From positions 186,001 through 250,000 of the forward strand of contig CAJNOJ010000001.1 in NCBI GenBank assembly GCA_905250025.1: a DNA stretch of 64,000 nt, in the 5' to 3' direction. The translations under genes and the position numbers were made by a program. The notes under the pieces were generated by a model. That model worked only from the letters and a program-made list of their open reading frames with translations. It made no database searches and was not told the DNA's origin. The DNA is from Adineta ricciae (Eukaryota; Rotifera; Eurotatoria; Adinetida; Adinetidae). Of the stretch, positions 23,689 to 60,027 are shown one piece after another; within the stretch, counting starts at the first letter, position 1; each line of letters begins with the position of its first letter.

Positions 23689-24696
23689 TTAAAGTTTCGA
23701 AAGTTCGTTCTTTCGAAATATTTCGTTAAGAACATCGTTCAGTAGTTGCGGATTTTCCATAGGAAATAAATGCGTTGCATTTTCTAAAAATATCTCTCGT
23801 CCTTGTTTGAACGACTTGACAAGATCAGGTTCGGTTGGTGATGTATCGAATCGACCTATAATCAATGGTAATGCTGTTCTTATAACATAAATCGGAGTAT
23901 ATTGAATAAATTTTGATTGTTCAATGATCGGAAACAGATTTGATTCATGTTGCATGGATGATCGGTACATTGAATGTTCTCCTTGTGCACTCAATCGAAG
24001 TTTATTATCTTCATCCAGCGCGTACGTGCAATAACTTTGCAATGTATCTTTCGGCCATCGTGAGAACGGTTCGCGTGTCTCCAATCGTGATATCATGTCT
24101 TCCACAGAAGACCACTGAGTTTTTCGCCGAAGAATATATTCCAAAGAAGGATGATTTTTATCACTAAGACCATATGTTGAATGTGGAACTATACCGGGAT
24201 CAATTAGAATTAAATATTGAAATAAACGTTTCGACGCTATTGCTGCCGCATACGTTAAAGCATAACCACCAGCGGAATGGCCAATACCAATCAACTTCGT
24301 TTTTGAAAGGTTTAATGTTTCAATAAACTGTAGAACATCTTCACCAAACCATGGAAAACGATACGGAGGTGGATGTTGTTGTGACCGACCGTGACCTCGA
24401 AAGTCTAAAGCAATGACATGGTACCCCCGCAATGCATTATTAATGATAGGATCGTAACATCGACCATGAAACGAGGTTGCATGACAGAGAAGAATCGTTG
24501 GTTGGCGACCTTTCCATTCCCAATAATGTAGTTTTAATGAACCAGAACTGATATCCCCGGTACTCTGGACAACCGGACGATTCTTCAAAATGATAAAATG
24601 ACTAGTAGGATTCGATGTCATCGCAGACGATCTTAATTTCCAATCTGAAGAAGAGATATTCACTGATTGAGCATATCTCTCCTGGGAAGAGAGCAA
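23689..24696 (-). CDS. Alpha/beta hydrolase, tandem copy 2, intronless
   Basis: 335 aa in one exon. Same architecture as copy 1, with nucleophile Ser141 in GHSAGG, an aspartate in RFDTSPTEPDL and a late histidine in HLFPMENP. The N-terminus is about 17 residues longer, and a later ATG (MTSNPTSHF) would align with copy 1. Overall divergence from copy 1 is substantial, but a central stretch of about 160 bases is almost identical. Substrate unknown. Confidence 0.85.
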   Translation of the reverse strand: MLSSQERYAQSVNISSSDWKLRSSAMTSNPTSHFIILKNRPVVQSTGDISSGSLKLHYWEWKGRQPTILLCHATSFHGRCYDPIINNALRGYHVIALDFRGHGRSQQHPPPYRFPWFGEDVLQFIETLNLSKTKLIGIGHSAGGYALTYAAAIASKRLFQYLILIDPGIVPHSTYGLSDKNHPSLEYILRRKTQWSSVEDMISRLETREPFSRWPKDTLQSYCTYALDEDNKLRLSAQGEHSMYRSSMQHESNLFPIIEQSKFIQYTPIYVIRTALPLIIGRFDTSPTEPDLVKSFKQGREIFLENATHLFPMENPQLLNDVLNEIFRKNELSKL

Positions 24697-30809: not shown

Positions 30810-31850
30810 GAATAAACAAGGTTCTACATGGATGATATTGTCATTTTTACTTTTACTTCCACAATCAATGAATTCGAGTTCTGTTGAAATCTTTCAATAA
30901 TGATCGAATCGAACTAAATGAACAATTGAAAACTTGGCATTATATACTTGAAATAGAGATATGAAATGAATCTCATTCCAAAGACATATTCTATTTGACG
31001 ACGAGCTTTTTTATGTAATATTTTGTATAAGAATATGACTTCGTGGAAGTCATATTGGATACCACATGGAGTTCATAGTTCACCGTAGTTTAATGATAAA
31101 AAGAACATCTTCGTTCGTGTTAATGTTATTTATTTGATTATTGAATATAAAAAAATGAATGATGATATTTATATACTTGTAAACCACGGAAGTTCCTTTC
31201 TGGAAATGGAATTTACACTTGTGATATGATTAGTTGGTCAGACATATCGTCATCGATTTTAGTCTTGTGTTAAAGATCGCGAGATCACTCGTTATTCTAT
31301 GTTTTATAGGAAAAATGTGAAATACTAATGCACCCAAAACACGAATCCAAAAGTAATCGATCAGTTTTATACATTCTGGTGTAATTTCGATATAGCTTCA
31401 TAATCTCTCTCCAAAAGAAGACAGAAAAACAAACAAAAAGAATTCCCTTTTCTATTGATAGAGGCATATAAAAGAACTTTTTATACGTAAATTTCGCATT
31501 CACACGTATTTCGTTTATTGAAGAAAGAAATAGCTCACAAAGATCAGAACTCTGTAAAGTTGTAGCTATGGTGTTTCTCTTCTTCTTCAGTTTGTTCAAC
31601 ACAAGTCGCTCTTATCATTGATTATCTCCATGATGATATCGAAGAGTTGAGTAAAAGAACGATCTCAATTTTGTTTTTGTTTCGCTTTACAATTAGCTAC
31701 AGCTATCAGCAGTCTACTATTGATTCGTTTTGTAACAACAGACGCTATACAGCCAGTCTGAACATTAATAACCCAACCTATGTCAACTTTAAAGGTAATT
31801 ACGTATCTCAAATGTTAGCTCTTCTGAATACAATATACTATGCAGTTTTT
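30810..31850. other. No gene seen
   Basis: AT-rich interval. A 101-codon minus frame at 31297-31602 (start MLNKLKKKRNTIATTL) is the longest. It has a hydrophobic middle but no known signature, and I do not support it as a gene. Confidence 0.45.
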
Positions 31851-34431
31851 TCCCTTTTCTGAAAGAAAGGGTTATAGCGACATAAATACAGTCGTGAAAA
31901 TGCATAAAGTTTGTTTGTTTGCATAATCCAATCAGATTGCAGCATATTATAAATCAATGAAATTTATCTATAATCATCAAAGATAGACCACTGGTGAGGT
32001 AACCAAGGTCGAGGATCTCGAATCTGATGCCAGTTTTTCGAGACTTCAAACAGCTAATTAGTTAATTACTAATTAGGCAATGAAAAATTTTTTGGTTGTT
32101 GAGTAAGACTCGATCGAAGGGTAACCGGGATCGAAGATATCGAATATGGTGTTAGTTTTTCTGTAGAAAAATTCTGTTCTGTTTTTTCAGAAAAAGTACG
32201 ATTTTTTGCAAGGAAGATTTTTTGTGGGCGATAGTGTTCGAAGAAGCAATATGTAGATCAAAACGAAATAGCTGATTAACGTCCGCCTGCTGGATACTCA
32301 TACTCATCAGCAAATTGATAACATTACAATTATATAAACAGTTATATTACACAAACATTATCTGCTGCTAACCACTCAAAATAATACTTCGTCTAATAAA
32401 TATTGTTTTGGACAGTCACAATGGCACAAAATTGGTGATTCTTTAATAGGGAATGAAAGGAAATGGTTTGATTGAATTTGAAGGGGATTTAAGCTAGATG
32501 AAAAATGAAAGTTGGACATGTAACGGCTAGCCGCGAGTGGCCGACCGGAGGCAGACCGACGAGCGACCAGGCGTTTGTTTGGGTGGCTTAGAAGAGATAA
32601 AATAAGTGTAAGTAAATTGATTTTTGATTGTAAATAGTGGGAAGAGAGTCGATTTGTAAATCTTTAGAAACAATGTTCCTTTTGCTTACATCTTTGGACA
32701 AATGAATTGAAAGCAGTTTGACATGAATAAAGTAGAAAAGGATTAAAAGAAAAGAATGTGCACAAAAGTGGCTTTAATTCGAAGCGGATTAGAGTGAGAT
32801 ATACGTTAGAGTTTTTATTTGAGTCTTGTAATTCTTTCAGAACAGGGTCAGCGGATCCAACAGATGAGCGCTACTTGTTGGTAGTAGCAAACGAAACAAT
32901 TAAGTTTATTTTTGACTCAGATTGACAAATACATTCAATGAAAACTAATTTACAATAAAGGAAAATATGCATTATAATCTTTCAAGCCAAGAGATATAAG
33001 TAATATCAGTTGTTCCAATCTCAAGTGAGGTAAGATGATGCTATTGAACGATTTCATCCGACTGAATTACTACCAGATGATTTCTCCACATTATTTGACT
33101 GCGGAGTAGTATTCCAAATACAAAAGGTTTTTTACCAATGGAAAAGCTTTAGCTATTCTAAGAAAAAAGAGCGTATTCAAATGACGTCCAGTCAGCTACA
33201 TATAGCTCAATAACGTAATTGAACACGGTATTTGTAAGTATATTGTCAATAAAGCAAAACTTTCCAAAGTCAAAGGGTAACGTATATACATGATATGTAA
33301 TTGAGAAACTACGGGTAATAACACCTGATATTTCGTGATATCCAATATTCATGAAATTTCATTTATAAGATGCGTTGGATTCATCCCATGTTGTCTGTTT
33401 TTAACCCCCTGAGAACGGATAACGTATGTATACGTATGGATTGAAATCAACTCATAATTTATTTGCGTATACTATTTACGATATTTTAATGGTCTATGTC
33501 GCTATATATATCGTTAATGTATTATACTATCATTTGTGTAGCATGACCTCTTTCATCGTTTTTCTTTTTGTAGTTATATTTATCACTTCTAATTTTTCGC
33601 TATGTCATAGTCCACTGCTATCATTTATCGTCTATTTTTTATTTATCCTCGCACACATTGCCTCTTGCATCCACCAGAGTGTGTAAAGTCTTGTTCGCTC
33701 TATTAAAAATAATTCTGTCCTCAAGGAGTTAATGTTACCAGTGAAATCAAATCGTGGAAAATAATTTTAGTAAGAGGGACTATGAATGCGCATCGATTAA
33801 GAAATAAAATAGATTTTCAGGCAAATCATATGAGCAATCTGTATTTCAGCAAAGGAAAACCGATGCTGAAGTACTAGAACAATGTAGTTCCATTCGTTTC
33901 ATAATTTATTGCAGAAAGCATAGAGTAAAATACTATGAAACCTATATAACATAGCACGCTTTACATAAAATACTATCCTCCACAGCCAAATAATACATCA
34001 GGTACTATTTTTGCCCTTCGTCGTAACTGCTCGCATTTGTATATCACAGTTATTATATTGTAAGAAACTAATCGGAAGTAAGCTGATAGCAGGACTATGG
34101 ATGTTTTAAAGTAAGATACTACAGCGTTCTTGCAGATTTCATAATTATCGTTAAAACCATCTGTTTAGGGATATTGAAAAACGGCTTAACTTTTCCAATA
34201 AGCTAAACGTCTTATTTCGCAAGAGAATTGATAACATTTGCTCTTTCGAATGTTTTCCACGTTTTCTTATTTATTACAATACTATGGGTGATTAATTCAT
34301 CAAACGAATTCACGACAGATTGTTAGAGCACCTCGATGATGGAGCTGTCATTCTATTTATATGAAAGATGGTGAATGTTCTAACTCACCCTTCAACACAA
34401 AAACCAGATACGCAGCTTAGGGATAGCAATT
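31851..34431 (+). repeat. Segmental duplication copy A (5' module only)
   Basis: Starts at CCCTTTTCTGAAAGAAAGGG and is nearly identical to 36538-39120 and 50094-52660. It runs to a single N at 34432, where B and C continue into the F-box gene. No coding frame is shared by the three copies. It includes the MITE described separately. It is probably the upstream flank of the F-box/LRR gene, carried along in the duplication. Confidence 0.9.
33401..33732. mobile_element. piggyBac-like MITE in copy A
   Basis: 332 bases bounded by TTAA at both ends. Left end TTAACCCCCTGAGAACGG; right end in reverse complement TTAACTCCTTGAGGACAG. Short imperfect terminal inverted repeats starting CCC/CTC beside a TTAA target fit the piggyBac superfamily. 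No transposase is encoded. The 86-codon frame inside is hydrophobic and not conserved in frame between copies. Confidence 0.65.
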
Positions 34432-34432
34432 N
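34432..34432. other. Single-N assembly join
   Basis: One N exactly where copy A stops resembling copies B and C. A one-base N normally marks a collapsed or arbitrary gap. Confidence 0.9.
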
Positions 34433-34513
34433 CTTCAAATAAATGACTTGAAACTGTATCTAGAATAAACAAAACGAAAAGTAGTTCTATAAACTGTGAA
34501 AATGAAAACTTAC

Positions 34514-35850
34514 GATTGAATGAAAGAGATATATGGTTAGGTGTTGATGTAGATGATACACCAATAATTTTTCCTAATCGTTTACTAAGCAATAGGATAA
34601 GTCGATTTCCTTGACCAAATTGTGATGTAACTACTGTTCCATTGACTACTCCAATTAATGAATGACCACGTTTGAAATCAATGATTTGTTGTGGTAATTC
34701 AATAGCAACACGTTTTTGTGCTACACGTGTATTTGCACCTAAATGTGGTGTACGAATGACACCAGGGTGTTGAATGAGTTTTAAATCAGTTGGTGGTTCT
34801 TCAAAGACATCCAAAGCAGCACCACTACAATGACCAGAATTGAGTGCATCAAGAAGTGCTGTTTCATCAATAATACCATCACCACGAGCAACATTAACTA
34901 ATTTAACACTTTTTCTACATTGTAATAAAACTTCCTCATTGATTAAATCTATTTAATTAAACAAAAACAAATAGTATAAAGAGATTTCTTTTTGGAGACA
35001 AAAACGTACGATGAGTTCCTTGCATTAATGGCACATGAACAGTGATGTGATCTGCTAATGACCAAAGATCCTTTAATTCAAAGAATTCTACTCCAAATGT
35101 TAAACTTTGTTCTGCAGGGATAATTGGATCATAACCAATCGTCTAAATTATTTCAAAAATCACTTTTCTTTCATATTAAATGATTGCATTCGTTTTGCAA
35201 TTTCTCGTCCAATTCTTCCTAAAGCAATACTAGCTAATGTTTTACTATTTAATTCTTCACCCATAAATGTTGATCGTTGTCAAGTACCTGATTTTAATGA
35301 AGCACAAGCATTCGGAATACTTCTGAAAAAAAGGATAGAAAATATTTGTTTAGTACAAACAATAGTTGTTTTGTATTGTTTCTTATCGAACCAAAGAACA
35401 AATCAAAGCACAAGTATGTTCAGCAGTTGAAAGAATGTTTCCGCCAGGAGTACTTAATTACGAAAAAAACTAGATAAGATATGGAAGAAAAAAAATTGAT
35501 GATACAAACTTCATAACAAGAATTCCATGACGAGTTGCTGTATCTGTATCGATATTATCTGTTCTTGTTTCTCCACGTCCAATTAATTTCAAACGAGGTG
35601 ATCCTTCAATAACAGCACTTGTTACTTTAGTTGCACTTCGAACAGTTCAAATATCAACTTCCTAATCAATGAAGACAAGTCATTTTTATCTAATAAGAAA
35701 AAAAAACAATCAATCATACTTGAACTCGTTTAATTAATTCTTCTTTCGATTGTTTAGCTAATTTAATATCTTTTTCGACTGAAAATCCATTTGCCACTAA
35801 CATATCCATTCATTGGAAAGTGAAATCATTAATGATTAAAGGACAACTGT
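34514..35850 (-). pseudogene. PHGDH: D-3-phosphoglycerate dehydrogenase, decayed copy
   Basis: The first enzyme of serine synthesis. The order of blocks matches animal [128 protein letters not shown], then PHLGANTRVAQ. Three in-frame TGA codons interrupt it: one near the N-terminus, one before RSATK, and one where human PHGDH has the tryptophan of KDGKWERK. The first glycine of the nucleotide-binding GxGxxG is alanine, and the splice junction before TIGYDP lacks a GT donor in frame. The C-terminal regulatory part is missing because the region ends at the duplication copy A join. Confidence 0.82.
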
Positions 35851-35948
35851 TATAATGATTAGAAACCATTGAGAATTGGCAAAGATAAAGTAAAGAAAAA
35901 GAGAGAATAGTTTTTGTTTTGACGTATCTTATTTATAATCATACCATT

Positions 35949-36323
35949 TCAAAGTAACAATGAGAGGTTCATGAAGTTGCTCTGGCAAAACTTTAAAAAA
36001 AAGATGACTGTCGTTGCTTGTTCACCTAAATATTCATCTGTATTGGAAATGAATTCTGCAGCAATGTAATCAATTTGATCCGATGATAATGGTTGTTCAT
36101 CGTGTACTTTTTCACCACGTTCTTTAGTTAATGCAATTATTGAACGAGCAACATCGTATATTGTGAGACTTGGATTATATGTTTGAATAAGAGCGGTTAA
36201 TTTTGAAAACTTTTCTTCGCCGTTTAATGCATAAAGATATTCATCTCGAGCAGCTCGCTTTGACAAAGTTGGTTTTATGTAGTGAACCATTTTGTTTCGA
36301 AGTTGTGTAGCAATATTACCCAT
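35949..36323 (-). CDS. Unrecognised protein, possibly frameshifted near its end
   Basis: From MGNIATQLRNKMVHYIKP the frame has balanced, non-repetitive composition: LYALNGEEKF, LTIYDVARSIIALTKERGEK, LSSDQIDYIAAEFI. It looks like real coding sequence of about 115 residues. After EYLGEQATTVIFF a run of eight T bases is followed by low-quality sequence in frame. The neighbouring frame then reads LPEQLHEPLIVTLKWYDYK before a stop. A one-base slip in the T run is therefore likely, either real or a sequencing error. An upstream in-frame ATG at 36356 adds 11 residues. Family unknown. It lies just upstream of the decayed PHGDH on the same strand. Confidence 0.45.
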   Translation of the reverse strand: MGNIATQLRNKMVHYIKPTLSKRAARDEYLYALNGEEKFSKLTALIQTYNPSLTIYDVARSIIALTKERGEKVHDEQPLSSDQIDYIAAEFISNTDEYLGEQATTVIFFLKFCQSNFMNLSLLL

Positions 36324-36442
36324 TTGAATGAAGTTTGCATTTTTTTTCAATTTCATTTAAATTCGAAGCATGAGATGATTGTATCGGTGTGAAGCTAGCA
36401 CGAACAAATGATATGTTAGCTAAAAACTTCTTTACTAAATAT

Positions 36443-36519: not shown

Positions 36520-38096
36520 AAACTTTGGAAAAATTTTTATTCCCTTTTCTGAAAGAAAGGGTTATAGCGACATAAATACAGTCGTGAAAATGCATAAAGT
36601 TTGTTTGTTTGCATAATCCAATCAGATTGCAGCATATTATGAATCAATGAAATTTATCTATAATCATCAAAGATTGACCACTGATGAGGTAACCGAGGTC
36701 GAGGATCTCGAATCCGATATCAGTTTTTCGAGACTTCAAACAGCTAATTAGTTAATTATTAATTAGGCAATGAAAAATTTTTTGGTTCTTGAGTAAGACT
36801 TGACCGAAGGGTAATCAGCGTCGAAGATATCGAATCTGGTATTAGTTTTTCTGTAGAAAAATTCTGTTCTGTTTTTTTCAGAAAAAGTACGATTTTTTGC
36901 AAGGAAGATTTTTTTGTGGGCGATAGTGTTTGAAGCAGCAATATGTAGAATAAAACCAAATAGCTGATTAGCGTCCGCCGGCTGGATACTCATACTCTCA
37001 TCAGTATATTGATAACATTACAATTACATAAACAGCTATACTACACAAACATTATCTGCTGCTAACCACTGGAAATAATACTTCCTCTAACAAATGTTGT
37101 TTTGGACAGTTACAATGGCACAACATTGGTGATTCTTTAACAGGGAATGAAAGGAAATGGTTTGATTGAATTTGAAGGGGATTTTAAGCTAGATGAAAGA
37201 ATGAAAGTTGGACATGTAACGGCTAGCCGCGAGTGGCCGACCGGAGGTAGATCGACGAGTGACCAGGAGTTTGTTTGGGTGGCTTAGAAGAAATAAAATA
37301 AGTGTAAGTAAATTGATTTTTGATTGTAAATAGTGGGAAGAGAGTCGATTAGTAAATCTTTAGAAACAGTGTTCCTTTTGCTTACATCTTTGGACAAATG
37401 AATTGAAAGCAGTTTGACATGAATACAGTAGAAAAGGATTAAAAGAAAAGAATGTGCATAAAAATGGGTTTAATTCGAAGCGGATTAGAGTGAGATATAC
37501 GTTAGAGTTTTTATCTGAGTCTTGTAATTCTTTCAGAACAGGGTCAGCGAATCCAACAGATGAGCGCTACTTGTTGGTAGTAGCAAACGAAACAATTAAG
37601 TTTATTTTTGACTCAGATTGGCAAATACATTCAATGAAAACTAATTTACAATAAAGGAAAATATGCATTATAATCTTTCAAGCCAAGAGATATAAGTAAT
37701 ATCAGTTGTTCCAATCTCAAGTGAGGTAAGATGATGCTATTGAACGATTTCATTCGACTGAATTACTACCAGATGATTTCTCCACATTATTTGACTGCGG
37801 AGCGGTATTCCAAATACAAAAGGTTTTTTACCAATGGAAAAGCTTTAGCTATTCTAAGAAAAAAGAACATATTCAAATGACGCCCAGTCAGCTACAGATA
37901 GCTCAATAACGTAATTGAACACGGTATTTGTAAGTATATTGTCAATAAAGCAAAGCTTTTCAAAGTCAAAGGGTAACGTATATACACGATATGTAATTGA
38001 GAAACTACGGGCAATAACACCTGGTATTTCGTGATATCCAATATTCATGAAATTTCATTTATAAGATGTGTTGGATTCATCCTATGTTGTCTGTTT

Positions 38097-38425
38097 TTAA
38101 CCTCCTGAGAACGGATGACGTATGTATACGTATGGGTTGAAATCAACTCATCATTTATTTGCGTATACTATTTACGATATTTTAATGATCTATGCCGCTA
38201 TATATATCTTTAATGCATTGTACTATCATTCGTATAGTAACCTCTTTCATCTTTTTTCTTTTTGTAGTTATATTCATCACTTCTAATTTTTCGCTATGTC
38301 ATAGTCCACTGCTATCATTTATCGTCTATTTTTATTTATCTTCGCACACATTATCTCTCGCATCCACCAGAGTGTGTAAAGTCTTGTTTGCTCTATTAAA
38401 AATAATCCCGTCCTCAAGGGGTTAA
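38097..38425. mobile_element. piggyBac-like MITE in copy B
   Basis: Same element as in copy A at the same place, bounded by TTAA (left end TTAACCTCCTGAGAACGG). It must have inserted before the segmental duplication. Confidence 0.65.
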
Positions 38426-39845
38426 TGTTACCAGTGAAATCAAATCGTTGAAAATAATTTTAGTAAGAGGGACTATGAATGCGCATCAATTAAAGAATAA
38501 AATAGATTTTCAGGCAAATCACATGAGCAATCTGTATTTCAGCAAAGGAAAACCGATGCTGAAGAACTAGAACAATGTAGTCCCATTCATTCCATAATTT
38601 ATTGCAGAAAGCATAGAGTAAAATATTATGAAACCTATATATCATAGCACGCTTTACATAAAATACTATCCTCCACAGTCAAATAATACATCAGGTACTA
38701 TTTTTGCCCTTCGTCGTAACTGCTCGCATTTGTATATCACAGTTATTATATTGTAAGAAACTAATCGGAAGTTAGCTGATAGCGGGACTATGGATGTTTT
38801 AAAGTAAGATACTACAGCGTTCTTGTAGATTTCATAATTATCGTTAAAACCATCTGTTTAGGGATATTGAAAAGCGGTTTAACTTTTCCAATAAGCTAAA
38901 CGTCTTGTTTCCTAAGAGAATCGATAACATTTAGTGTTTCGAAGGTTTTCCACGTTTTCTTATTTATTAAAATACCATGGGGGTAATGAATTCATCAAAA
39001 TGAATTGACAGCAAATTGTTAAAGCACCTCGATGAGGGAGCTGTCATTTTATTTATATGAAAGATGGTGAATGTTCTAACTTACCCTTCAACACAAAAAA
39101 ACAGATACGCAGCTTAGGGATAGCAACTTAACTTACCTTTAAATGTTCTGGTTAACGTCACCTCTGCAGTAAACCGTAGCTCAATTTTATAGTTTTTGGC
39201 TTTAAAAAGAAATCAAAGATCATGTGACTGTTTTTTTCTCAGGTTGAGAAACGATCATTTTTGTTTTTGTTTTATCTATCATCGAATAAGATTTGAAAAA
39301 ATGAAACAAACACACTGAGGGATGCTGCATGAAGCTCTATCAGCAAACTACAATCATCTGTTCTTTTTAACTAAAAAACGTCAAATGTTGCAAAACGATC
39401 AGTGAAAACTGACTGGGTAACATTTAGTGTTCTCGAAGACAAAACATACATAATCAAAATAGATCTCTAATCTAAGCTGTACAGTTTTTATATTCCATTA
39501 CAATTTTTAGTTAAAAAAATTAATTTAGAAATGTTAATTCCTTTTCATGAAACTAGAATCGGTTTCTAAAGGAGCCAAAGCCATAAAAGATGTCGTGTTT
39601 TCAATTTTTTAATTTACCATTGTAACTGTGAAAACAGAATTCACTGCGCATACGTATTCTAATGCCATCTATCTGCGCACGCCAACACTTCATAACAGTT
39701 GAAATGATTACACGTCATTTGTTTTCGTCAAAGACATATATATCTGCATCATCACCATGAATTACTACTGATAACGAACAAAACCAAATATTTTTCATCG
39801 CTTCCAGTCTCTACGGTACAGTCTGCTGCACGATTGAAATACAGC

Positions 39846-42800
39846 ATGCACACATTTTCAACGTTACCTGTCGAACTAGTTTATCGAATTATGGATCATC
39901 AAAATGGCCGGACGCTATTTTGTTCAATGCAAAATATCTGTCGACGGCTCAATCAGATCCTGAGTACTTACCAGCGATATCAAGTAAGTTTACTTGGTAT
40001 TTTAATATTCTCGTCGACTGTGCTATACATAAGCTTAATGGTATTTGATGTCGTAGATTCCCTCATAGGACAACCCAAACTAATTTCATAATTCGCAAAC
40101 AGTTTGCTAGGATGAGACAATCACAGCCAGCAGTCATATGCAATCAAGCATTCCTTCACTCGCTCCCTTTTGTTCTATGTACATTGAAGATACATCCGAC
40201 CGATACGCGACCATGAACGAGCAAAACGCTTACTTATGCGTTACCGTTTCCGCGTTGCACTTCTCGACACAAAAATTGCATCAATTACAACTTTTGAGGG
40301 AACTCATCTACTCAAGCAAACAACACTGTACAGTTCTTTGACCTATGGCAATATTCATTCTCAACACGCGTACATCAAGTCCAGCTCCTACATTTCAGAA
40401 GACTAGGACTTGGATATCCCAGGAGCGCGTCTTCAAAAGAGAAATCTCATTACCACCTATATATATTGAAACTTATGTCCTACTCTTTCCGATTCTATCC
40501 TATCACAGTAATCCCCTGTCTAGATTCTCGACACAGCACTTCTTTCCGAAACAACAACTAGCCTGATCTTCCACCCGAAGAATTCACATCTACACCCAAC
40601 TCCTTAAAAATCTACCACACATAACTATTTCAAATCACACACATACCATCCAAAGTGCCATCAAAGGTTTTCTTTACTACTTCTGCTTTTCATTACGTAC
40701 TACTTCAATCCAGACACTCACCACACTTGACCTCAGTTGGAACCGAATCGGTGCTGACGGAGCACACAACATTGCTAATGCGCTGAGAACGAACACGGTA
40801 ATATTCATCTCATTTCATAGAAGATGGAGCGCTCAGTCTATATCACACCTACAGACACTCACCACACTTCACCTCAGTGGGAGCAAAATCGGTGCTAAAG
40901 GAGCACAACACATTGCTAATGCGCTGCGAACGAATACGGTAATATTGATCTGATTTCATAGAAGATGAAGCACTCAGTCTATCTCACACCTACAGACACT
41001 CACCACACATAATCTCAGTTCCAACCAAATCGGTGATGAAGGAGCAAAACACATAGCGGATGCGTTGCGAACGAATACGGTAATATTGATCTCATTTCAT
41101 AGAAGATGAAGCACTCAGTGTATCTCACACCTACAGACGCTCACCACACTTGACCTCAGTTGGAACCAAATCCCTGATGAAGGAGCACAACACATAGCGG
41201 ATGCGTTGCGAACGAATACGGTAATATTGATCTCATTTCATAGAAGATGAAGCACTCAGTGTATCTCACACCTACAGACGCTCACCACACTTGACCTCAG
41301 TTGGAACCAAATCCCTGATGAAGGAGCACAACACATAGCGGATGCGTTGCGAACGAATACGGTAATATTGATCTCATTTCATAGAAGATGAAGCACTCAG
41401 TGTATCTCACACCTACAGACACTCACCACGCTTAACGTCCAGGACAACCAAATCGGTGCTCAAGGAGCACAAAACATTGCGGATGCGTTGCGAACGAACG
41501 CAGTAATATTGATCAGATTTCACACAAGATGAAGCACTCAGTGTATCTCACACCTATAGACACTCACCACACTTAACCTCCGTTCGAACCAAATCGGTGC
41601 TGAAGGCGCAAAACACATTGCGCACGCCTTGCCAACGAATACGGTAATGTTGATCTGATTTCATAGAACATGAAGCACTCAGTGTATCACATACATTCAG
41701 ACACTCACCACACTTAACCTCGAGAGGAACCGAATCGGTGCTGAAGGAGCACAAAACATTGCGGATGCGTTGCAAACGAGCGCAGTAATATTGATATCAT
41801 CTCATAGAAGATGAAGCACTCACTCTATCACATACATACAGACACTCACCACGCTTAACCTCCAGGTCAACCAAATCGGTGATGAAGGAGCACAACACAT
41901 GGCGGATGCGTTGCGAACGAACGCAGTAATATTGATCTGATTTCATAGAAGGTCAAGCACTCAGTCTATCTCACGCCTACAGACACTCACCACACTTCAC
42001 CTCAGTTGGAACGGAATCGGTGCTGAAGGAGCAAAACACATTGCGGAAGCGTTGCGAACGAATACGGTAATATTGATTTCATTTTATTGGAGATGCAGCA
42101 CTTAGTGTATCACATACATACAGACACTCACCACGCTTAACCTCCAGGACAACCAAATCGGTGATGAAGGAGCAGAACATATTGCGGATGCGCTGCGAAC
42201 GAACGCAGTAATATTGATCTGATTTCATAGAAGATGAAGCACTCAGTGTATCTCAAACCTACAGACACTCACGACACTTGACCTCTGCGACAACCAAATC
42301 GGTGATGAAGGAGCACAACACATTGCGGATGCCTTGCGAACGAATACGGTAATATTGATCTCATTTCATGAAAGATGAAGCACTCACTCTATCACATACA
42401 TACAGACACTCACCACACATAATCTCAGTTCCAACCAAATCGGTGATGAAGGAGCAAAACACATTGCTAATGCGCTGCGAACGAATACGGTAATATTGAT
42501 CTGATTTCATAGAAGGTCAAGCACTCACTCTATCTCACACCTACAGACACTCACCACACTTGACCTCAGTTGGAACCGAATCCGTGCTGAAGGAGCACAA
42601 CACATTGCGGATGCGTTGCGAACGAACGCAGTAATATTGATCTGATTTCATAGAAGATGAAGCACTCAGTGTATCTCACACCTACAGACGCTCACCACAC
42701 TTCACCTCCGTTCGAACCAAATCGGTGATGAAGGAGCAGAACATATGGCGGATGCGTTGCGAACGAACGCAGTAATATTGATCTGATTTCATAGAAGATG

Positions 42801-43269
42801 AAGCACTCAGTCTATCTCACACCTACAGACACTCGCCAGACTTGACCTCAGTGGGAACCGAATCCGTGCTGAAGGAGCACAACACATTGCGGAAGCGTTG
42901 CGAACGAATACGGTAATATTGATCTCATTTGATAGAAGATGAAGCATTCAGTGTATGACATACATACAGACACTCACGACACTTGACCTCTGCAACAACC
43001 AAATCGGTGCTGAAGGAGCACAACACATTACGGATGCCTTGCGAACGAATACGGTAATATTGATCTCATTTCATAGAAGATGAAGCACTCAGTCTATATT
43101 ACACGTACAGACACTCACCACACTTCACCTCGGTGCGAATGAAATCGGTGACGAAGTAGCTCAACATATCGGAGATGCGTTGGGAAGGAATATAGTAAGA
43201 TTGATGCTGTTGTCGAAGAAGTTTGTAATTTCTGTTTTGTCTCATTCTTAGAGCGCCAAGATGGTATAG
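39846..43269 (+). CDS. F-box/leucine-rich-repeat protein, copy B (20 exons predicted)
   Basis: Predicted exons: F-box exon 39846-39983, then 18 LRR exons of 84 bases starting at 40714 and every 141 bases to 43111-43194, then a terminal exon 43252-43269 encoding SAKMV and a stop; 555 aa if spliced this way. The first exon contains FSTLPVELVYRIMDH and NICRRLNQILSTY, an F-box. F-box proteins link substrates to SKP1-cullin ubiquitin ligases, and LRRs would bind the substrate. Every LRR exon is open, begins and ends in phase 0, and has the consensus TLTTLxLxxNxIGxEGAQHIADALRTNT. The F-box exon also ends in phase 0. The 730 bases between the F-box exon and the first LRR exon have no convincing coding frame, so either they are one intron or a middle domain has decayed. 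Confidence 0.7.
40714..43194 (+). repeat. Array of 18 exon-intron LRR units, 141-base period (copy B)
   Basis: Each unit is an 84-base exon (one 28-residue ribonuclease-inhibitor-type LRR) followed by a 57-base intron from GTAATATTGATC to CTCACACCTACAG. The period is exactly 141 bases for all units, with no indels. Units 4 and 5 are identical. Variation is greatest in the two residues of the LxLxxN segment (SW, SG, SS, QD, RS, ER, QV, CD, CN, GA). The last unit is divergent (DEVAQHIGDALGRNI) and caps the array. Confidence 0.95.
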
Positions 43270-44122
43270 ATCTGGCTTTAAATTCAATCGGAGAACAAGT
43301 GATCGTGGATCTGATGGCTCTTTGTGTAGATCGGATCTTTTTCGATTGAGAACTTAGTCGATATCATTTGTTGTGTGGTTATCGTGACATTGATGAGTAA
43401 TAAAGGTATAGAAAATGAATCTTGTTGTGAGAAGTGAATGTTACCTGAATGGTAATACTTTTTGTTCTGTGAGAAATGCATGTGCATTAGTCAAAATGAA
43501 TGGTTTAGTTACGAAGGTATAACGGAGCAGTGTTTGGTAGAAGAGACGCCATAGTGCGGTGCGTGTATGAGTGATCCTCTCGGTTTAGAGTTTGTTTCTG
43601 AGAGGGTATGATGGACAAGACAACATTACTGTAGACAGCTCGACTATACTGGAGATATAGAAGAATGGGGTCGATGGTAGTACAGCATGTATGCAGTTCA
43701 GATGTTATATCTACTAATGGCAAAGTGATCAGAACGTGGTACACTGAATGGTAGCAATTCTTCATTATAAGAAAGCTGTTGCATGCTTTATTCCGAAGCC
43801 TAAATGTATTGATTGTTTGATGAGGAGGTTTTGTTTCTTTTTGTGGTTCATTTTTGGAGAGAGTAGTATAGGTCGGTTATGTATGAGTTCTATGGTGTGT
43901 TTGAAAAAAACACTGTTATAAACTGACTAGAATGACATAGTGAAGAGAGAATAATTAAAAAATAGCACACCCAATCGCTCTGTTAGATTAATTATTTCCC
44001 ACCATCAGCGTAGTCTGAAAACAAGTTATTTTGTCGAATATGATCAGCACTATTCACTCTTGGTGCTTATCCATGTTAAAATATCAGGGTAGTGTTTTTA
44101 CAGTACTTTATCGTGGAAAGAG

Positions 44123-44194
44123 NNNNNNNNNNNNNNNNNNNNNNNNNNNNNNNNNNNNNNNNNNNNNNNNNNNNNNNNNNNNNNNNNNNNNNNN
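44123..44194. other. Assembly gap (72 N)
   Basis: Run of N. Sequence before the gap follows the 3' flank of copy C (equivalent to about 57760). Sequence after it matches copy C only weakly, so the gap sits at the end of the duplication. Confidence 0.98.
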
Positions 44195-49960: not shown

Positions 49961-51640
49961 TGAATTGTGTTCCATTGTAATAAGCGATCGATCAAATGTC
50001 TGGCAAAGAGCGATTAAGCTGAACAATGCTCAGCCTAGTATCACCTTCGATCTCGAAGTCGTATGCTTTAATACTTTCTAATTGTTTGACTGTTATTCCC
50101 TTTTCTGAAAGAAAGGGTTATAGCGACATAAATACAGTCGTGAAAATGCATAAAGTTTGTTTGCATAATCCAATCAGATTGCAGTATATTATAAATCAAT
50201 GAAATTTATCTATAATCATCAAAGATTGACCACTGATGAGGTAACCGAGGTCGAGGATCTCGAATCCGATATCAGTTTTTCGAGACTTCAAACAGCTAAT
50301 TATTAATTAGGCAATGAAAAATTTTTTGGTTGTTGAGTAAGACTCGACCGAAGGGTAATCGGCGTCGAAGATATCGAATCTGGTGTTAGTTTTTCTGTAG
50401 AAAAATTCTGTTCTGTTTTTTCAGAAAAAGTACGATTTTTTGCAAGGAAGATTTTTTGTGGGCGATAGTGTTTGAAGCAGCAATATGTAGAATAAAACCA
50501 AATAGCTGATTAGCGTCCGCCGGCTGGATACTCATACTCATCAGTATATTGATAACATTACAATTATATAAACAGCTATATTACACAAACATTATCTGCT
50601 GCTAACCACTCGAAATAATATTTCCTCTAACAAATGTTGTTTTGGACAGTCACAATGGCACAACATTGGTGATTCTTTAACAGGGAATGAAAGGAAATGG
50701 TTTGATTGAATTTGAAGGGGATTTTAAGCTAGATGAAAGAATGAAAGTTGGACATGTAACGGCTAGCCGCGAGTGGCCGAACGGAGGCAGACCAACGAGC
50801 GACCAGGTGCTTGTGTGGGTGGCTTAGAAGAGATAAAACAAGTGTAAGTAAATTGATTTTTGATTGTAAATAGTGGGAAGAGAGTCGATTAGTAAATCTT
50901 TAGAAACAGTGTTCCTTTTGCTTACATCTTTTGACAAATGAATTGAAAGCAGTTTAACATGAATAAAGTAGAAAAGGATTAAAAAAAAAGAATCTGCATA
51001 AAAGTGGCTTTAATTCGAAGCGGATTAGAGTGTGATATACGTTAGAGTTTTTATTTGAGTCTTGTAATTCTTTCAGAATAGGGTCAGCGGATCCAACAGA
51101 TGAGCGCTACTTGTTGGTAGTAGCAAACGAAACAATTAAGTTTATTTTCGACTCAGATTGGCAAATACATTCAATGAAAACTAATTTACAATAAAGGAAA
51201 ATATGCATTATGATCTTTCAAGCCAACAGATATAAGTAATATCAGTTGTTCCAATCTCAAGTGAGGTAAGATGATGCCATTGAACGATTTCATTCGACTG
51301 AATTACTACTAGATGATTTCTCCACATTATTTGACTGCGGAGTAGTATTCCAAATACAAAAGGTTTTTACCAATGGAAAAGCTTTAGCTATTCTAAGAAA
51401 AAAGAACATATTCAAATGACGTCCAGTCCAGTCAGCTACATATAGCTCAATAACGTAATTGAACACGGTATTTGTAAGTATATTATCAATAAAGCAAAGC
51501 TTTCCAAAGTCAAAGGGTAACGTATATACACGATATGTGATTGAGAAACTACGGGTAATAACACCTGATATTTCGTGATATCCAATATTCATGAAATTTC
51601 ATTTATAAGATGTATTGGATTCATCCCATGTTGTCTGTTT

Positions 51641-51961
51641 TTAACCCCCTGAGAACGGATGATATATGTATACGTCTGGGTTGAAATCAACTGATAATTT
51701 ATTTGCGTATACTATTTACGATATTTTAATGATCTACGTCGCTACGTATATCGTTAATGCATTATCCTATCATTCGTATAGTGACCTCTTTCATCTTTTT
51801 GTAGTTATATTCATCACTTCTAATTTTTCGCTATATCATAGTCCACCGCTATCATTTATCGTCTATTTTTTATTTATCTTCGCACACATTGTCTCTTGCA
51901 TCCACCAGAGTGTGAAGTCTTGTTTGCTCTATTAAAAATAATCCTGTCCTCAAGGGGTTAA
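51641..51961. mobile_element. piggyBac-like MITE in copy C
   Basis: Same element as in copies A and B, slightly shorter because of small internal deletions, again bounded by TTAA. Confidence 0.65.
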
Positions 51962-53334
51962 TATTACCAGTGAAATCAAATCATGGAAAATACTTTTAGT
52001 AAGAGGGACTATGAATGCGCATCAATTAAGGAATAAAATAGATTTTCAGGCAAATCACATGAGCAATCTGTGTTTCAGCAAAGGAAAACCGATGCTGAAG
52101 TACTAGAACAATGTAGTTCCATTCGTTTCATAATTTATTGCAGAAAGCATAGAGTAAAATATTGTGAAACCGATATAACATAGCACGCTTTACATAAAAT
52201 ACTATCCTCCACAGCCAAATAATACATTAAGTACTATTTTTGCCCTTCGTTGTAACTGCTCGCATTATTGTATATCACAGTTATTATATTGTAAGAAACT
52301 AATCGGAAGTTAGCTGATAGCAGGACTATGGATGTGTTAAAGTAAGATACCACAGCGTTCTTGTAGATTTCATAATTATCGTTAAAACCATCTGTTTAGA
52401 GATATTGAAAAGCGGTTTAACTTTTCCAATAAGCTAAACGTCTTGTTTCCTAAGAGAATCGATAACATTTGGTGTTTCGAAGTTTTTCCACGTTTTCTTA
52501 TTTATTAAAATACCATGGGGGTAATGAATTCATCAAAATGAATTGACAGCAAATTGTTAGAGCACTTCGATGAGGGAGCTGTCATTCTATTTATATGAAA
52601 GATGGTGAATGTTCTAACTCATCCTTCAACACAAAAACCAGATACGCAGCTTAGAGACAGCAATTTAACTTAACTTTAAATGTTCTAGTTAACGTCACCT
52701 CTGCAGTAAACCGTAGCTCAATTTTTTTAAATAGTTTTTGCCTTTAAAAAAGAAATAAAAGATCATGTCACTGTTTTTTTTCAGGTTGAGAAGCGATCAT
52801 TTTTGTTTGTGTTTTATCTATCATCGAATAAGATTTGAAAAAATGAAACAAACACACTGACGTGAGGAATGCTGCATGAAGCTCTATCAGTGAAAACTTG
52901 CTGGGTAACATTTAGTGTTCTCGAAGACAAAACATACATAATAAAAATAGATCTCTAATCTAAGCTGCAGAGTTTTTCATATTCCATTACAATTTTTAGT
53001 TAAAAAAATTAATTTAGAAATGTTGATTTCTTTTCATGAAACTAGAATCGGTTTCCAAAGGAGCCAAAGCCATAAAAGATGTCCTGTTTTCAATTTTTTA
53101 ATTTACCATTGTAACTGTGAAAACAGAATTCACTGCGCATACGTATTCTAATGCCATCTATCTGCGCACGCCAACAATTCATAACAGTTGAAATGATTAC
53201 ACGTCATTTGTTTTCGTCAAAGACATATATATCTACATCATCACCATGAATTACTACTGATAACGAACAAAACTAAATATTTTTCATCGCTTCCAGTCTC
53301 TACGGTACAGTCTGCTGCACGATTGAAATACAAC

Positions 53335-56300
53335 ATGCACACATTTTCAACATTACCTGTCGAACTAGTTTATCGAATTATGGATCATCAAAATGGCCGG
53401 ACGCTATTTTGTTCAATGCAAAATATCTGTCGACGGCTCAATCAGATCCTGAGTACTTATCAGCGATATCAAGTAAGTTTACTTCGTATCCTAACATTCT
53501 TGTCGACTGTGCTATACATAAGCTTAATGGTATTTGATGTCGTAGATTCCCTCATAGGACTAACCAAACTAATTTCATAATTCACAAACAATTTCCTAGG
53601 ATAAGACAATCACAGCCAGAAGTCATATGAAATCCAGTATTCCATCACTCTCTCCCATTTGTTCTATGTAGATTGAGGATCCATTCGACCGATACGCGAC
53701 CATGAACGAGCAAAACGCTTACTTATGCGTTACCGTTTCTGCGTTGCACTACTCGAGACAAAAATTGCGTCAATTACAACTTTTGAGGGAACTCATCTAC
53801 TGAAGCAAACAACACTGTACAGTTCTTTGACCTATCCCAATATTCATTCTCAACACGGCTACATTAAATTCCGCTCCTACATTTCAGAAGAGTAGGACTT
53901 AGATTTCACTGGACCGCGTCTTCAAAAGAGACTTCTCATTACCACCAATACATATTGAAACTTATGCCCTACTCTTTCCAACTCCATCCTATCACAGTAA
54001 TATCCAGCCTAGATTCTCGACACAGCACTTCTTTCCTCAACAACAACTAGCATCATCATCCACCCGCAGAATTCCCATCTACACCCAACTCCTCCTTAAA
54101 AATCTACCCCACACATACCTATTTCAAATCACATACATGCCATCGGAAGTGCCACCAAAAGTTCTCTTTACTACTTCCGCTTTTCATTACATACTACTTC
54201 AATCTAGACACTCACCACCCTTAACCTCCAGGATAACCAAATCGGTGATGAAGGAGCACAAAACATTGCGGATGCGTTGCGAACGAACACAGTAATATTG
54301 ATCTCATTTTATTAGAGATGAAGCACTCAGTGTATCTCACACCTACAGACACTCACCACACTTGACCTCAATGGGAACGAAATTGGCGCTGACGGAGCAC
54401 AACACATTGCTAATGCACTCCGAACGAATACGGTAATATTGATCTGCTTTCATAGAAGATGAAGCACTCAGTCTATATCACACCCACAGACACTCACCAC
54501 ACTTAACCTCAGTTGGAACCGAATCCGTGCTGAAGGAGCACAACACATTGCGGATGCGTTGCGAACGAATACCGTAATATTGATCTCATTTCATAGAAGA
54601 TGAAGCACTCAGTCTATCTCACATCTGCAGACACTCACCACACTTGACCTCTATCAGAACGGAATCGGTGCCGAAGGATCACGACACATTACGCATGCGT
54701 TGCGGACGAATACCGTAATATTGATCTGATTTCATAGAAGATGAAGTACTCAGTCTATATCACACCTACAGACACTCACTACACTTAACCTCAGTTGGAA
54801 CCGAATCCGTGCTGAAGGAGCACAAGACATTGCGGATGCGTTGCGGACAAATACGGTAATATTGATCTCATTTTATTAGAGATGAAGCACTCAGTCTATC
54901 TCACACCTACAGACACTCACAGCACTAGACCTCCATACGAACGAAATCGGTGCTAAAGGAGCACAACACATTGCGGATGCGTTGCGGATGAATACGGTAA
55001 TATTGGTCTCATTTCATAGAAGATGAAGCACTTAGTCTATATCACGCCTACAGACACTCACAGCACTAGACCTCCACCATAACGTAATCCGTGATGAAGG
55101 AGCACAAAACATTGCGGATGCGTTGCGAACGAACACAGTAATATTGATCTCATTCCATAGAAGATGAAGCATTCAGTGTATCTCACACCTACAGACACTC
55201 ACCACACTTCACCTCAATGAGAACAAAATCGGTGCTGAAGGAGCACAACACATTGCGGATGCGTTGCGGACGAATACGGTAATATTGATCTCATTTTATT
55301 AGAGATGAAGCACTCAGTCTATATCACACCTACAGACACTCACCACACTTGACCTCTATCAGAACGTAATCGGTGCTAAAGGAGCACAACACATTGCTAA
55401 TGCGCTCCGAACGAATACCGTAATATTGATCTGATTTCATAGAAGATGAAGCACTCAGTCTATATCACACCTACAGACACTCACCACACTTAACCTCATT
55501 TGGAACGAAATCGGTGATGAAGGAGCACAAAACATTGCGGATGCGTTGCGAACGAACACAGTAATATTGATCTCATTTTATTAGAGATGAAGCACTCCAT
55601 CTGTCTCACACCTACAGACACTCACCACACTTAACCTCAGTTGGAACCGAATCCGTGCTGAAGGAGCGCAACACATTGCGGATGCGTTGCGAACGAACGC
55701 AGTAATATTGATCTGATTTCATAGAAGATGAAGCACTTAGTCTATATCACACCTACAGACACTCACCACACTTGACCTCCATACGAACGAAATCGGTGCC
55801 GAAGGAGCGCAACACATTGCGGATGCGTTGCGGACGAATACGGTAATATTGATCTCATTTCATAGAAGATGAAGCACTCAGTCTATCTCACACCTACAGA
55901 CACTCACAGCACTAGACCTCGACAATAGCGTAATCGGTGCCGAAGGAGCACAACACATTGCTAATGCGCTCCAAACGAATACAGTAATATTGATCTCATT
56001 TTATTAGAGATGAAACACTCAGTTCATCTCACACCTGCAGACACTCACCACACTTCATCTCAGTAGGAACGTAATCGGTGCTGAAGGAGCGCAACACATT
56101 GCAGATGGGCTGCGAACGAATACGGTAATATTGATCTCATTTCATACAAGATGAAGCACTCAGTTTATCTCACACCTGCAGACACTCACCACGCTTCATC
56201 TCAGTAGGAACAAAATCGGTGCTGCAGGAGCAGAACACATTGCAGATGGGCTGCGAACGAGTACGGTAATATGGATCTCATTTCATAGAATATGAAGCAC

Positions 56301-56904
56301 TTAGTCTATCTCACACCTACAGACACTCACCACCCTTGACCTGGAAGGGAACAAAATCGGTGGTGCAGGAGCACAACACATCGCAGATGGGTTGCGAACG
56401 AATAGGGTAATATTGATCTCATTTCGTAGAAGATGAACCACTCAGTTTATCTCACACCTGCAGACACTCACCACACTTCACCTCAGTTGGAACGAAATCG
56501 GTGCTGAAGTAGCACAACACATTGCTAATGCGCTCCGAACGAATACGGTAATATTGATTTCATTTTATTAGAGATGAAGCACTCCATCTGTCTCACATCT
56601 ACAGACACTCACAACACTTGACCTTCGTGCGAACGCAATTGGTGCGGAAGGAGCACAACACATTGCGGATGCGTTGCGAACGAATACAGTAATGTTGATC
56701 TCATTTTATTAGAGATGAAGCACTCAGCCGGTCTCACTCCGACAGACACTCACCACACTTAACCTCTACGACAACAAAATCGGTGATGAAGTAGCTCAAC
56801 ATATTGCAGATGCATTGGGAAGGAATATAGTAAGATTGATGCTGTGCTCCAAGAAGTTTGTAATCTCTGTTTTGTCTCATTCTTAGAGCGCCAAGGTGGT
56901 ATAG
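53335..56904 (+). CDS. F-box/leucine-rich-repeat protein, copy C (21 exons predicted)
   Basis: F-box exon 53335-53472 is nearly identical to copy B (NICRRLNQILSTY). Then come 19 LRR exons of 84 bases starting at 54208 and every 141 bases to 56746-56829, and a terminal exon 56887-56904 (SAKVV, stop), giving 583 aa. All LRR exons I translated are open and phase 0. The spacer between F-box and LRRs differs from copy B by many small changes and small indels and keeps no shared frame, which argues it is intronic or decayed. Repeat residues differ from copy B at the exposed LxLxxN positions (HHNV, LYQN, IRTN, DNSV). Confidence 0.7.
54208..56829 (+). repeat. Array of 19 exon-intron LRR units, 141-base period (copy C)
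   Basis: Same 84 plus 57 base unit as copy B with no indels over 19 units. Two main intron versions alternate, one with TTTCATAGAAGATGAAG and one with TTTTATTAGAGATGAAG, and can be used to trace unit duplication. The last unit ends DEVAQHIADALGRNI, matching the cap of copy B. Confidence 0.95.
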
Positions 56905-58433: not shown

Positions 58434-59215
58434 ACTGTAAAAAAAAGGAGTTTTACCAAACCAATAAAGGATCTTCCCTCCGATACACGGGACGATCCTT
58501 TTTTTGTTAAGTAAAATGAAGGTTCCGAAGAGAACCTTACAGGAAAAATTGAGAGCAAAGGTTCCGCAGGAAAGGTTTAGTACGAAACTTTTTTTCTTCA
58601 AAAGACAGAAGGTTCCGTATCGTAGGTAGCGTACGGAACCATCTGTAACTATATTAAAAAAGGTTTCGTGAAAATCCATAGCTGCGAAACCTTCGTTGTG
58701 TTAGTTGTTCTCTTGGGTTAGTCACAGACTCTTTTATAGTTATCGCCCTATAGGCTCCGGATTCAGCCGCTACAAAATATATCGTTCAAAACTACCTTTC
58801 GAACGTCCACACACCTTCGCCCACCCTTTCATCGTGACACGAACATGGAAGTAGGTTCTAGCCATTCTAGTAGATCCATTGCGATCAACTCTAAACGAGA
58901 AAGACGATAGAATGTGTTTTATTAAAAATTATCACTTACCTAGTTGAATGGCAGGCTATTCAGAATTTTCCGTCGATAGATTTGCATCGATACAGTGAGG
59001 ACTAGTGAGAAAGACTAAAAATAAATAGAAAATGAAAATTGCATGGATATTTATAGGGTCTCACCGGACGGTCTATTGAAAACTTGACGTCGGCTGGTGT
59101 AAAGGGCTATGTCTTTCAATGAGTCTTCTCCTTTTCCTAACTGAACCAACGGCAGATATCAATGGTTTGGTAGAGGGTTCGCCGAACAGGAACAATAATT
59201 ATGAGATCATTAATT
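58434..59215 (+). mobile_element. Foldback-like element, left part (truncated at assembly join)
   Basis: Almost identical to 61548-62329. Begins ACTGTAAAAAAAAGGAG and contains hairpin words around GGTTCCG and CGGAACC. The right half is missing because the sequence stops at the N at 59216. Confidence 0.65.
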
Positions 59216-59216
59216 N
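59216..59216. other. Single-N assembly join
   Basis: One N joins the inside of a foldback-like element to the middle of an LRR exon, a junction with no biological logic visible. Confidence 0.9.
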
Positions 59217-60027
59217 TGCGTTGCGAACGAATACGGTAATATTGATCTCATTTCATCGAAGATGAAGCATTCAGTCTATCTCACACCTACAGACACTCAC
59301 TACCCTTCACCTCAGCGGCATCGGAATCGGTGCTGAAGGAGCACAACACATTGCGGATGCGTTGCGAATGAATACGGTAATATTGATCTTATTTCAAAGA
59401 ATATGCAGTACCCAGTCTATATCACACTTAGAGACACTCACCACACTTCACCTCCATGAGAATGGGATCGGTGCTGAAGGAGCACAACACATTGCGGATG
59501 CGTTGCGAACGAATACGGTAATATTGATCTCATTTCATCGAAGATGAAGCACTCAGTCTATCTCACACCTACAGACACTCACTACACTAGACCTCAGTTG
59601 GAACGAAATCGGTGCTGAAGGAGCACAGCACATTGCGGATGCGTTGCGAACGAATACGGTAATATTGATCTCATTTAATAGAAGATGAAGCATTCAGTCT
59701 ATATCACAACTACAGACACTCACCACACTAAACCTCAGTTACAACAGAATCGGTGCTGAAGGAGCACAACACATTGCGGATGCGCTGGGAGCGAATACGG
59801 TAATATTGATCTCATTTAATAGAAGATGAAGCATTCAGTCTATATCACAACTACAGACACTCACCACACTTGAACTCGAGCGCTACAAAATCTGGGATGA
59901 AATAGCTCAACGCATTGCAGATGCATTGGAAAGGAATATAGTAAGATTAATGCTGTGGTCGAAGAAGTTTGTAATTTCTGTTTTGTCTCATCCTTAGAGC
60001 GCCAAGATGGTATATATCTGGCTTTAA
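59217..60027 (+). pseudogene. F-box/LRR gene copy D, 3' part only
   Basis: Starts inside an LRR exon (59217-59235, last six codons), then five full LRR exons at 59293, 59434, 59575, 59716 and 59857 (84 bases each, 141-base period) and a terminal exon from 59998. The capping repeat is divergent (LELERYKIWDEIAQRIADALERNI). The terminal exon reads SAKMV and then, because the TAG of copies B and C is TAT here, continues YIWL to a stop at 60027. The 5' part is absent because of the join at 59216, so whether this is a broken gene or a misassembled one is open. Confidence 0.7.

Follow-up and report, generated by a model that had tools for sequence, protein, structure and literature searches.

A stretch of 64,000 nucleotides from the bdelloid rotifer Adineta ricciae (assembly GCA_905250025.1, contig CAJNOJ010000001.1, positions 186,001 to 250,000, forward strand; hereafter the window, whose own numbering is used throughout) was analyzed for a tandem array of leucine-rich repeat (LRR) exons and the gene in which it appears to lie. 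The array, designated A, occupies 40714-43194 on the plus strand and consists of 18 units of exactly 141 bp with zero indels, each made up of one 84-base phase-0 exon encoding a single 28-residue LRR and one 57-base GT-AG intron. Tandem Repeats Finder (TRF) called the tract at 40711-43205 with period 141, 17.7 copies and 0% indels, and this call and a check of reading frames found a preliminary description of the array to be exact in its coordinates, unit length, unit count and absence of indels. That description missed that the array is one of three in the window, which hold 18 (A), 19 (B) and 5 (C) full units, 42 in total. Both strands of the window were scanned at >62% identity to a 96-base consensus, and no LRR units were found outside arrays A, B and C. 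The gene copies were modeled as follows.

39846-39983, plus strand: exon 1 of copy A, 138 bp, 46 amino acids, phase 0, from ATG to CAA followed by a GTAAGT donor, F-box-like
39984-40713, plus strand: intron 1 of copy A, 730 bp, GTAAGT...CAG
40714-43194, plus strand: array A, made up of 18 LRR exons (84 bp, 28 amino acids each) and 17 introns of 57 bp
41137-41418, plus strand: units A4 and A5, a pair without a single difference across 141 bp
43195-43251, plus strand: last intron of copy A, 57 bp, GTAAGA...TTAG, differing from the internal introns
43252-43269, plus strand: last exon of copy A, SAKMV-stop
53335-53472, plus strand: exon 1 of copy B, counterpart of exon 1 of copy A
53473-54207, plus strand: intron 1 of copy B, 735 bp
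54208-56829, plus strand: array B, made up of 19 LRR exons (84 bp each) and introns of 57 bp, its units not collinear with those of array A
56830-56904, plus strand: last intron and last exon of copy B, SAKVV-stop
59217-60027, plus strand: copy C, comprising an exon end, 5 full LRR exons (59293-59940), the last intron and the last exon, SAKMVYIWL-stop
31846-34431, plus strand: "copy 0", far-upstream flank only, cut at the N at 34432

In both complete copies (A and B) a phase-0 head exon leads into LRR exons that are also in phase 0, and the last exon encodes SAKxV; the predicted spliced proteins are 555 and 583 amino acids long, respectively. The arrays thus modeled appear to belong to a small tandem gene family encoding a 46-residue F-box-like head and 18-19 LRRs of ribonuclease-inhibitor type. 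The copy 0 flank differs by 4.9% from each of its counterparts at 36536-39126 and 50093-52665, and the 5' part of copy C is lost at the N at 59216. Ns are present at 34432 (1), 44123-44194 (72) and 59216 (1), where repeated sequence ends; these runs look like scaffold joins, so that the number and order of the units are less certain than their content. An element with 29-nt terminal inverted repeats (TIR) lies at 61548-63945 (arms 61553-61581 and 63912-63940, 83% complementary), and its left 0.78 kb recurs with one substitution at 58434-59215 beside copy B, where it is cut at the N at 59216. This N joins the interior of the TIR element to the interior of array C, and the gene order B-C may be false. 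Each copy of intron 1 contains one weak LRR-like regular-expression match (LCTLKIHPT in A); an extra LRR exon hidden in this intron was not supported, the single weak match per copy being taken as chance.

Frame 0 was free of stops in all 42 exons of the three arrays, including the 18 of array A; in the joined exons the other two forward frames contained 21 and 90 stops. Exon length and phase (84 bp, phase 0) are constant in tandem through 42/42 units. Every array A intron (18/18) starts with GT and finishes with AG, and 42/42 units share GTAA at donor positions 1-4 and AG at the acceptor, the predicted splice sites being GTAATATTG donors and CAG acceptors. It had been proposed that intron retention would normally meet an in-frame TGA. 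An in-frame stop is indeed carried by 17 of the 18 array A introns (A1 lacks one) and by 40/42 over all arrays, although the codon is not TGA in every case. On these grounds the array is real and very probably coding. A decaying pseudogene array, or a satellite with a fossil LRR frame, would suit the loss of some framework residues in C5 and the altered acceptor region of C1 (CTTAGAG), but it is extremely improbable given 42 exons with zero stops, the constant 141-bp spacing, a head protein that is identical in A and B, and a ratio of nonsynonymous to synonymous differences per site (pN/pS) of 0.36 in the framework codons.

The uniformity of the exons also admits a reading in which the array mainly serves to yield many isoforms, in-frame LRR exons being either skipped or included. 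Skips would keep the frame, since every LRR exon is 84 bp in phase 0, and alternative splicing of such exons has been reported in brown algae and in human NLRs, NLRP3 among them (PMC11378527, PMC6642158). This reading was judged unlikely, as the splice signals are near-identical (GTAA and AG in 42/42 units), with no mark in the DNA for regulated skipping, and the difference in unit content between arrays A and B is left unexplained.

Pfam LRR_6 matched the array protein in 18 stretches (E 2.6e-121), and ribonuclease inhibitor, NLRP and GALA chains were among the matches listed (60 of 85) when the first 298 residues of protein B were compared with the PDB. By these matches, the LRRs are of the ribonuclease-inhibitor type. 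The families MRM3-like_sub_bind and Plug exceeded their whole-protein Pfam cut-offs with 0 stretches passing individually and were taken as sums over repeats. No Roc or COR domain was among the 13 Pfam families reported for protein A (E up to 1), so the gene was not classed as a ROCO gene. The 46-residue head on its own matched Pfam F-box-like (E 0.0098, 16.1 bits) and F-box (E 0.091), both below the gathering score, and is considered weakly F-box-like. The F-box to which the array was earlier said to be attached is accordingly a tentative label.

Copies A and B were compared from the head exon through the 3' flank. Exon 1 differs by 1.45% at the DNA level, which amounts to 2 synonymous changes and 0 amino acid differences, and the 446 bp upstream are 2.9% diverged, as against 9.7% for intron 1 and 7.7% for the 3' flank. 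When whole units were aligned at a lower gap cost, 231 of 500 shuffled arrays matched the A/B order as well or better, and under five other settings 243, 341, 489, 474 and 499 of 500 did so; collinearity of the two arrays was accordingly not supported. The positional partner (register 0 or 1) was the best match in B for 1/17 A units, and reciprocal-best pairs numbered 3/17. Simulated descent at 5, 10, 15 and 20% divergence gave means of 15.9, 15.3, 14.3 and 13.1 reciprocal-best pairs, with a minimum of 5. Because this count ignores order, mistakes in scaffold order do not account for the low A/B orthology.

That scaffolding chimerized the units, giving false order, mosaics and perhaps false tandem copies, was weighed against these results. 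Three N stretches interrupt the repeats, that at 59216 joining the TIR element directly to array C, and scaffolding programs and gap filling went into published bdelloid assemblies (PMC5916493). Open frames are no argument against such an artefact, as chimeras of homologous units stay in register and in frame. The missing orthology was, on the other side, measured independently of order, and linkage between variants (described below) is gone by 20-60 bp, a distance that falls inside one read if reads are at least 100 bases, so that an origin in assembly is very unlikely.

The proposal that whole LRRs are gained or lost with the frame kept was upheld. Units A4 and A5 show 0 differences over 141 bp within an exact 232-bp run at offset 141 from 41048, and on this identity the pair is a recent whole-unit duplication; unit number also differs between the close paralogues, 18 in A and 19 in B, a count that depends on the assembly. 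The two arrays are slightly differentiated (between minus within 1.67, 0/2000 permutations).

Linkage between variants within units was measured as r2 over 44 informative sites and fell from 0.205 at 1-3 bp to 0.086 at 4-10 bp, 0.051 at 11-20 bp and ~0.03 beyond 20 bp, with a null of 0.026 under independence. The contrast between near and far sites was reached in 0/5000 permutations, or 1/5000 when the hypervariable codons described below were left out. Clonal descent under a neutral coalescent, a loose yardstick, predicted a mean r2 of 0.43 (1-99%, 0.22-0.80). Distances between exons and between their own introns were compared by Mantel test and showed no clear correlation, with r 0.135 in A (241/2000 permutations as high) and 0.102 in B (434/2000); for exons and preceding introns the values were inconsistent, at 0.234 in A (38/2000) and -0.123 in B (1661/2000). 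Linkage is thus lost within ~20-40 bp, meaning that the units are mosaics, and whole-unit shuffling as the sole process was not supported. The unlinked variants and the scarcity of A/B orthologues require short-patch exchange (or recurrent mutation) as well, and it is probable that units were both duplicated whole and altered by exchange of short patches. Unequal crossing-over of whole units, as first suggested, would account for the whole-unit changes seen, but it is not the main visible process.

Diversity was then tabulated over the 39 internal units, leaving out the terminal units A18, B19 and C5, whose introns are of another kind. Introns proved more conserved than exons (mean pairwise difference 0.128 vs 0.173), because four exon codons are hypervariable, and the earlier view that the introns are as conserved as the exons was corrected. 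Amino acid diversity at positions 6, 8, 9 and 11 is 0.66, 0.77, 0.89 and 0.83, respectively, and all other positions are at or below 0.46. In known LRR structures these four positions are exposed on the concave beta-sheet. If all x positions of the motif LxxLxLxxNxI (3, 4, 6, 8, 9 and 11) are taken together, of which 3 and 4 are conserved, the Mann-Whitney p is 0.011. In evolutionary terms, then, the diversity role proposed for the array is supported, in that the most variable residues lie on the binding face.

For the four codons, which were picked after the diversity table was seen, pN is 0.475 (bootstrap 0.417-0.515). Framework pN is 0.084 and framework pS 0.234 (0.199-0.265), the ratio of 0.36 indicating constraint, and the inner intron differs by 0.147 (0.115-0.174); four-codon pN lay above both of these neutral yardsticks in 300/300 bootstraps. 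Within array B, four-codon pN and pS are 0.493 vs 0.285. The terminal units are the only clear orthologue set among the arrays. Exon and intron differences are 12/84 vs 4/57 for A18/B19, 20/84 vs 3/57 for A18/C5 and 13/84 vs 5/57 for B19/C5, and the four codons take 5.5/6.5, 6.5/13 and 6/11.5 of the nonsynonymous changes, respectively. Whole-exon pN exceeds pS in B19/C5 only (0.176 vs 0.080). Selection on the binding surface is the likeliest cause of the four-position excess, judging from these rates, and a local mutation or conversion hotspot is a possible contributor.

Ordinary repeat-protein evolution offers an account without such selection, in which neutral unequal exchange and conversion turn the units over and the variable surface is merely tolerated or lies in a hotspot. 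The A4/A5 identity and the unit counts of 18 and 19 suit neutral turnover, the slight differentiation between arrays is what concerted evolution predicts, and the framework ratio of 0.36, a terminal orthologue pN below pS in 2/3 pairs and the high pS of the four codons agree with it as well. Tolerance, however, caps pN at the neutral rate, and pN at the four positions is ~2x framework pS and ~3x the inner intron. This account was regarded as unlikely.

Taken together, the data lead us to favor, with somewhat better than even confidence, the view that the tandem family encodes a rapidly evolving recognition protein, in which an F-box-like head is joined to a one-exon-per-LRR solenoid that is remade by inter-unit recombination and selected for its surface. 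Under this model the array would be continually remade in the germ line, unequal exchange moving whole units and conversion-like exchange moving short patches, while the short, regular introns would keep the frame at any unit number and offer homology for exchange. Selection would then retain variants with new concave surfaces. The head would probably dock to SKP1-cullin, so that targets bound by the solenoid could be ubiquitinated; the likeliest targets would be rapidly changing foreign or selfish proteins. The receptor is perhaps an SCF adaptor, and it may have a role in defence.

Several results count against this proposal. In the context of the whole protein the F-box-like match weakens to E 0.21 and 11.8 bits (gathering cut-off 24.3), the head matched nothing in the PDB at E up to 10, and when folded from its sequence alone it was modeled as one long helix (pLDDT 77, pTM 0.44); these outcomes and the sub-threshold Pfam scores make the F-box label a lead, not a result. 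The near/far linkage contrast is weak for introns alone (reached in 346/5000 permutations, or in 920/5000 once columns 105-107 are left out) and likewise for the exon framework by itself (225/5000), so some recurrent mutation is possible. Four-codon pS is itself 0.393 over all units, albeit from few sites, which leaves room for a contribution from a local hotspot of mutation or conversion; within array A, four-codon pN and pS are close (0.416 vs 0.408). Whole-exon pN falls below pS in A18/B19 (0.101 vs 0.280) and A18/C5 (0.201 vs 0.362), and this high synonymous divergence of the terminal exons takes weight from the selected-receptor model and adds it to the neutral account. A protein search matched 2 stretches in viral contigs and 62 in prokaryote contigs, of which none was confirmed as a relative. 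Searches of viral contigs with DNA patterns for the exon end plus donor and for the exon core gave 0 matches.

The sequences flanking the arrays were compared among copies. Between 39937 and the array, A/B divergence per 200-bp window is 6.5-13% (the first window holds the end of exon 1) vs 1-6.2% upstream, and B/C divergence is 5-16% close to the array and 0-1.3% past ~58245. The drop at ~58245 is step-like, as would be expected of a conversion boundary or a join made in assembly more than of a smooth gradient in mutation. Non-coding sequence farther upstream is 3.9% diverged, whereas intron 1 reaches 9.7% and the 3' flank 7.7-9.5%, and the share of transitions goes from 0.72 far upstream (77/107) to 0.45-0.59 beside the array (intron 1, 32/71, p 0.0005; A/B 3' flank, 39/67, p 0.07; B/C flank, 56/109, p 0.0007 vs 93/127 for copy 0/A). 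Loss per site in the 3' flank is 28/112 for C vs 27/213 for G (p 0.008). The two introns 1 have guanine-cytosine (GC) skews of -0.34 and -0.39, lower than in any other 700-bp segment of the window, and the three 3' flanks (43252-44122 for copy A) have skews of +0.29 to +0.31, opposite in sign to the side before the array.

One reading of these flanks is that the LRR array centers dedicated mutagenic recombination, in which break repair by copying within and between arrays would scramble the units in short patches and raise the mutation rate for ~1-1.5 kb on each side, with a spectrum rich in transversions and asymmetric between strands. If this were true, a family of ubiquitin-ligase receptors would be diversified by an engine acting in the germ line (or even in the soma) of an animal, which is possibly an ameiotic bdelloid. 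Since the copies share descent, the spectrum and skew of the flanks amount to one observation, not several, and a similar positive skew at ~36.7-37.8 kb, remote from the array, takes further weight from this idea, which we consider quite improbable. An AID-like context for C changes in the 3' flank was not supported, there being no clear 5' preference. Adjacent double substitutions were dropped as a signal; intron 1 has 7 where ~7 are predicted from density.

Known systems were compared with the selected-receptor model. Lamprey VLRs consist of LRR modules with diversity in the concave residues and are assembled somatically from separate donor cassettes, whereas here a complete array is present in the assembled genomic DNA. 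Human NLRs have no F-box-like head, unlike the gene described here. Human NLR and ribonuclease-inhibitor genes resemble it in their ribonuclease-inhibitor-type LRRs and strict exonic modularity (PMC6642158). The comparison with lamprey VLRs made in the preliminary description extends to logic only, and closer precedents are found in the published accounts of brown-algal ROCO and Tetrahymena LRR genes. Brown-algal LRR-ROCO genes have one LRR per exon, exon shuffling and splice variants, with four positively selected concave-face positions in one such protein, and have been proposed as immune receptors (PMC11378527, in which Zambounis et al. 2012 is cited). The likeness to the present arrays extends to uniform exon length and phase and to the four variable concave positions. 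As described there, the algal exons are 72 bp long in phase 2 and the LRRs are N-terminal, followed by a ROC-COR GTPase, in contrast to the 84-bp phase-0 exons, F-box-like head and uniform 57-bp introns found here. In Tetrahymena, arrays of 90-bp phase-2 LRR exons occur in thousands of genes, are associated with a retrotransposon and have been proposed to arise by unequal crossing-over, and the authors stated that they knew of no other eukaryote with arrays as uniform (PMC6564038). Those arrays are likewise long, with LRR exons of equal length and a fixed intron phase, in a genome where background introns are ~56 bp; exon length, phase and the F-box-like head set the rotifer gene apart. Caenorhabditis F-box families likewise pair a conserved N-terminal domain, there an F-box, with a diversifying C-terminal domain; dN/dS peaks in the C-terminal substrate domain in 73/95 C. 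elegans and 25/37 C. briggsae paralogue pairs, and recognition of foreign proteins has been proposed (PMC8665587). In the sections of that paper cited here the C-terminal domains are mainly FBA2 and FTH, with no mention of an exon-per-repeat LRR array. A splice-derived "VLR2" is reported for a crab (PMC10045472). No description of a family combining an F-box-like head with an exon-per-LRR array was found in the literature searched, most subscription journals being outside its reach.

The array appears to be an unusually clean diversifying modular receptor, built on a shuffling principle already published for brown algae and Tetrahymena. If the selected-receptor model is right, exon-per-LRR shuffling either arose independently in an animal or is far wider than thought, and the shuffled array has in this case been joined to a protein-degradation head and not to a signaling head. 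The intron of each unit provides a built-in, near-neutral yardstick, and neighboring copies with identical head proteins show the pace of array turnover. The system would bear on how lineages without antibodies, and possibly without meiosis, make new recognition surfaces.

The window has a GC content of 35.7%, and seven putative introns of a neighboring gene, picked by eye with approximate boundaries, measure 51-66 bp; for A. ricciae as a whole, 35.6% GC and a median intron of 55 bp have been published (PMC5916493). Between two copies of the upstream flank, at 34433-36356 on the minus strand, lie open reading frames (ORFs) split by introns or frame changes. These resemble D-3-phosphoglycerate dehydrogenase. 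An ORF of 253 amino acids at 12429-13190 contains ordinary LRR_6 repeats, not in array form, and resembles a ciliary LRRC71-type protein. Two similar tandem genes are located on the minus strand at 22585-23541 and 23689-24696 (73.6% DNA identity over 876 columns), the first of which is an alpha/beta hydrolase by Pfam.

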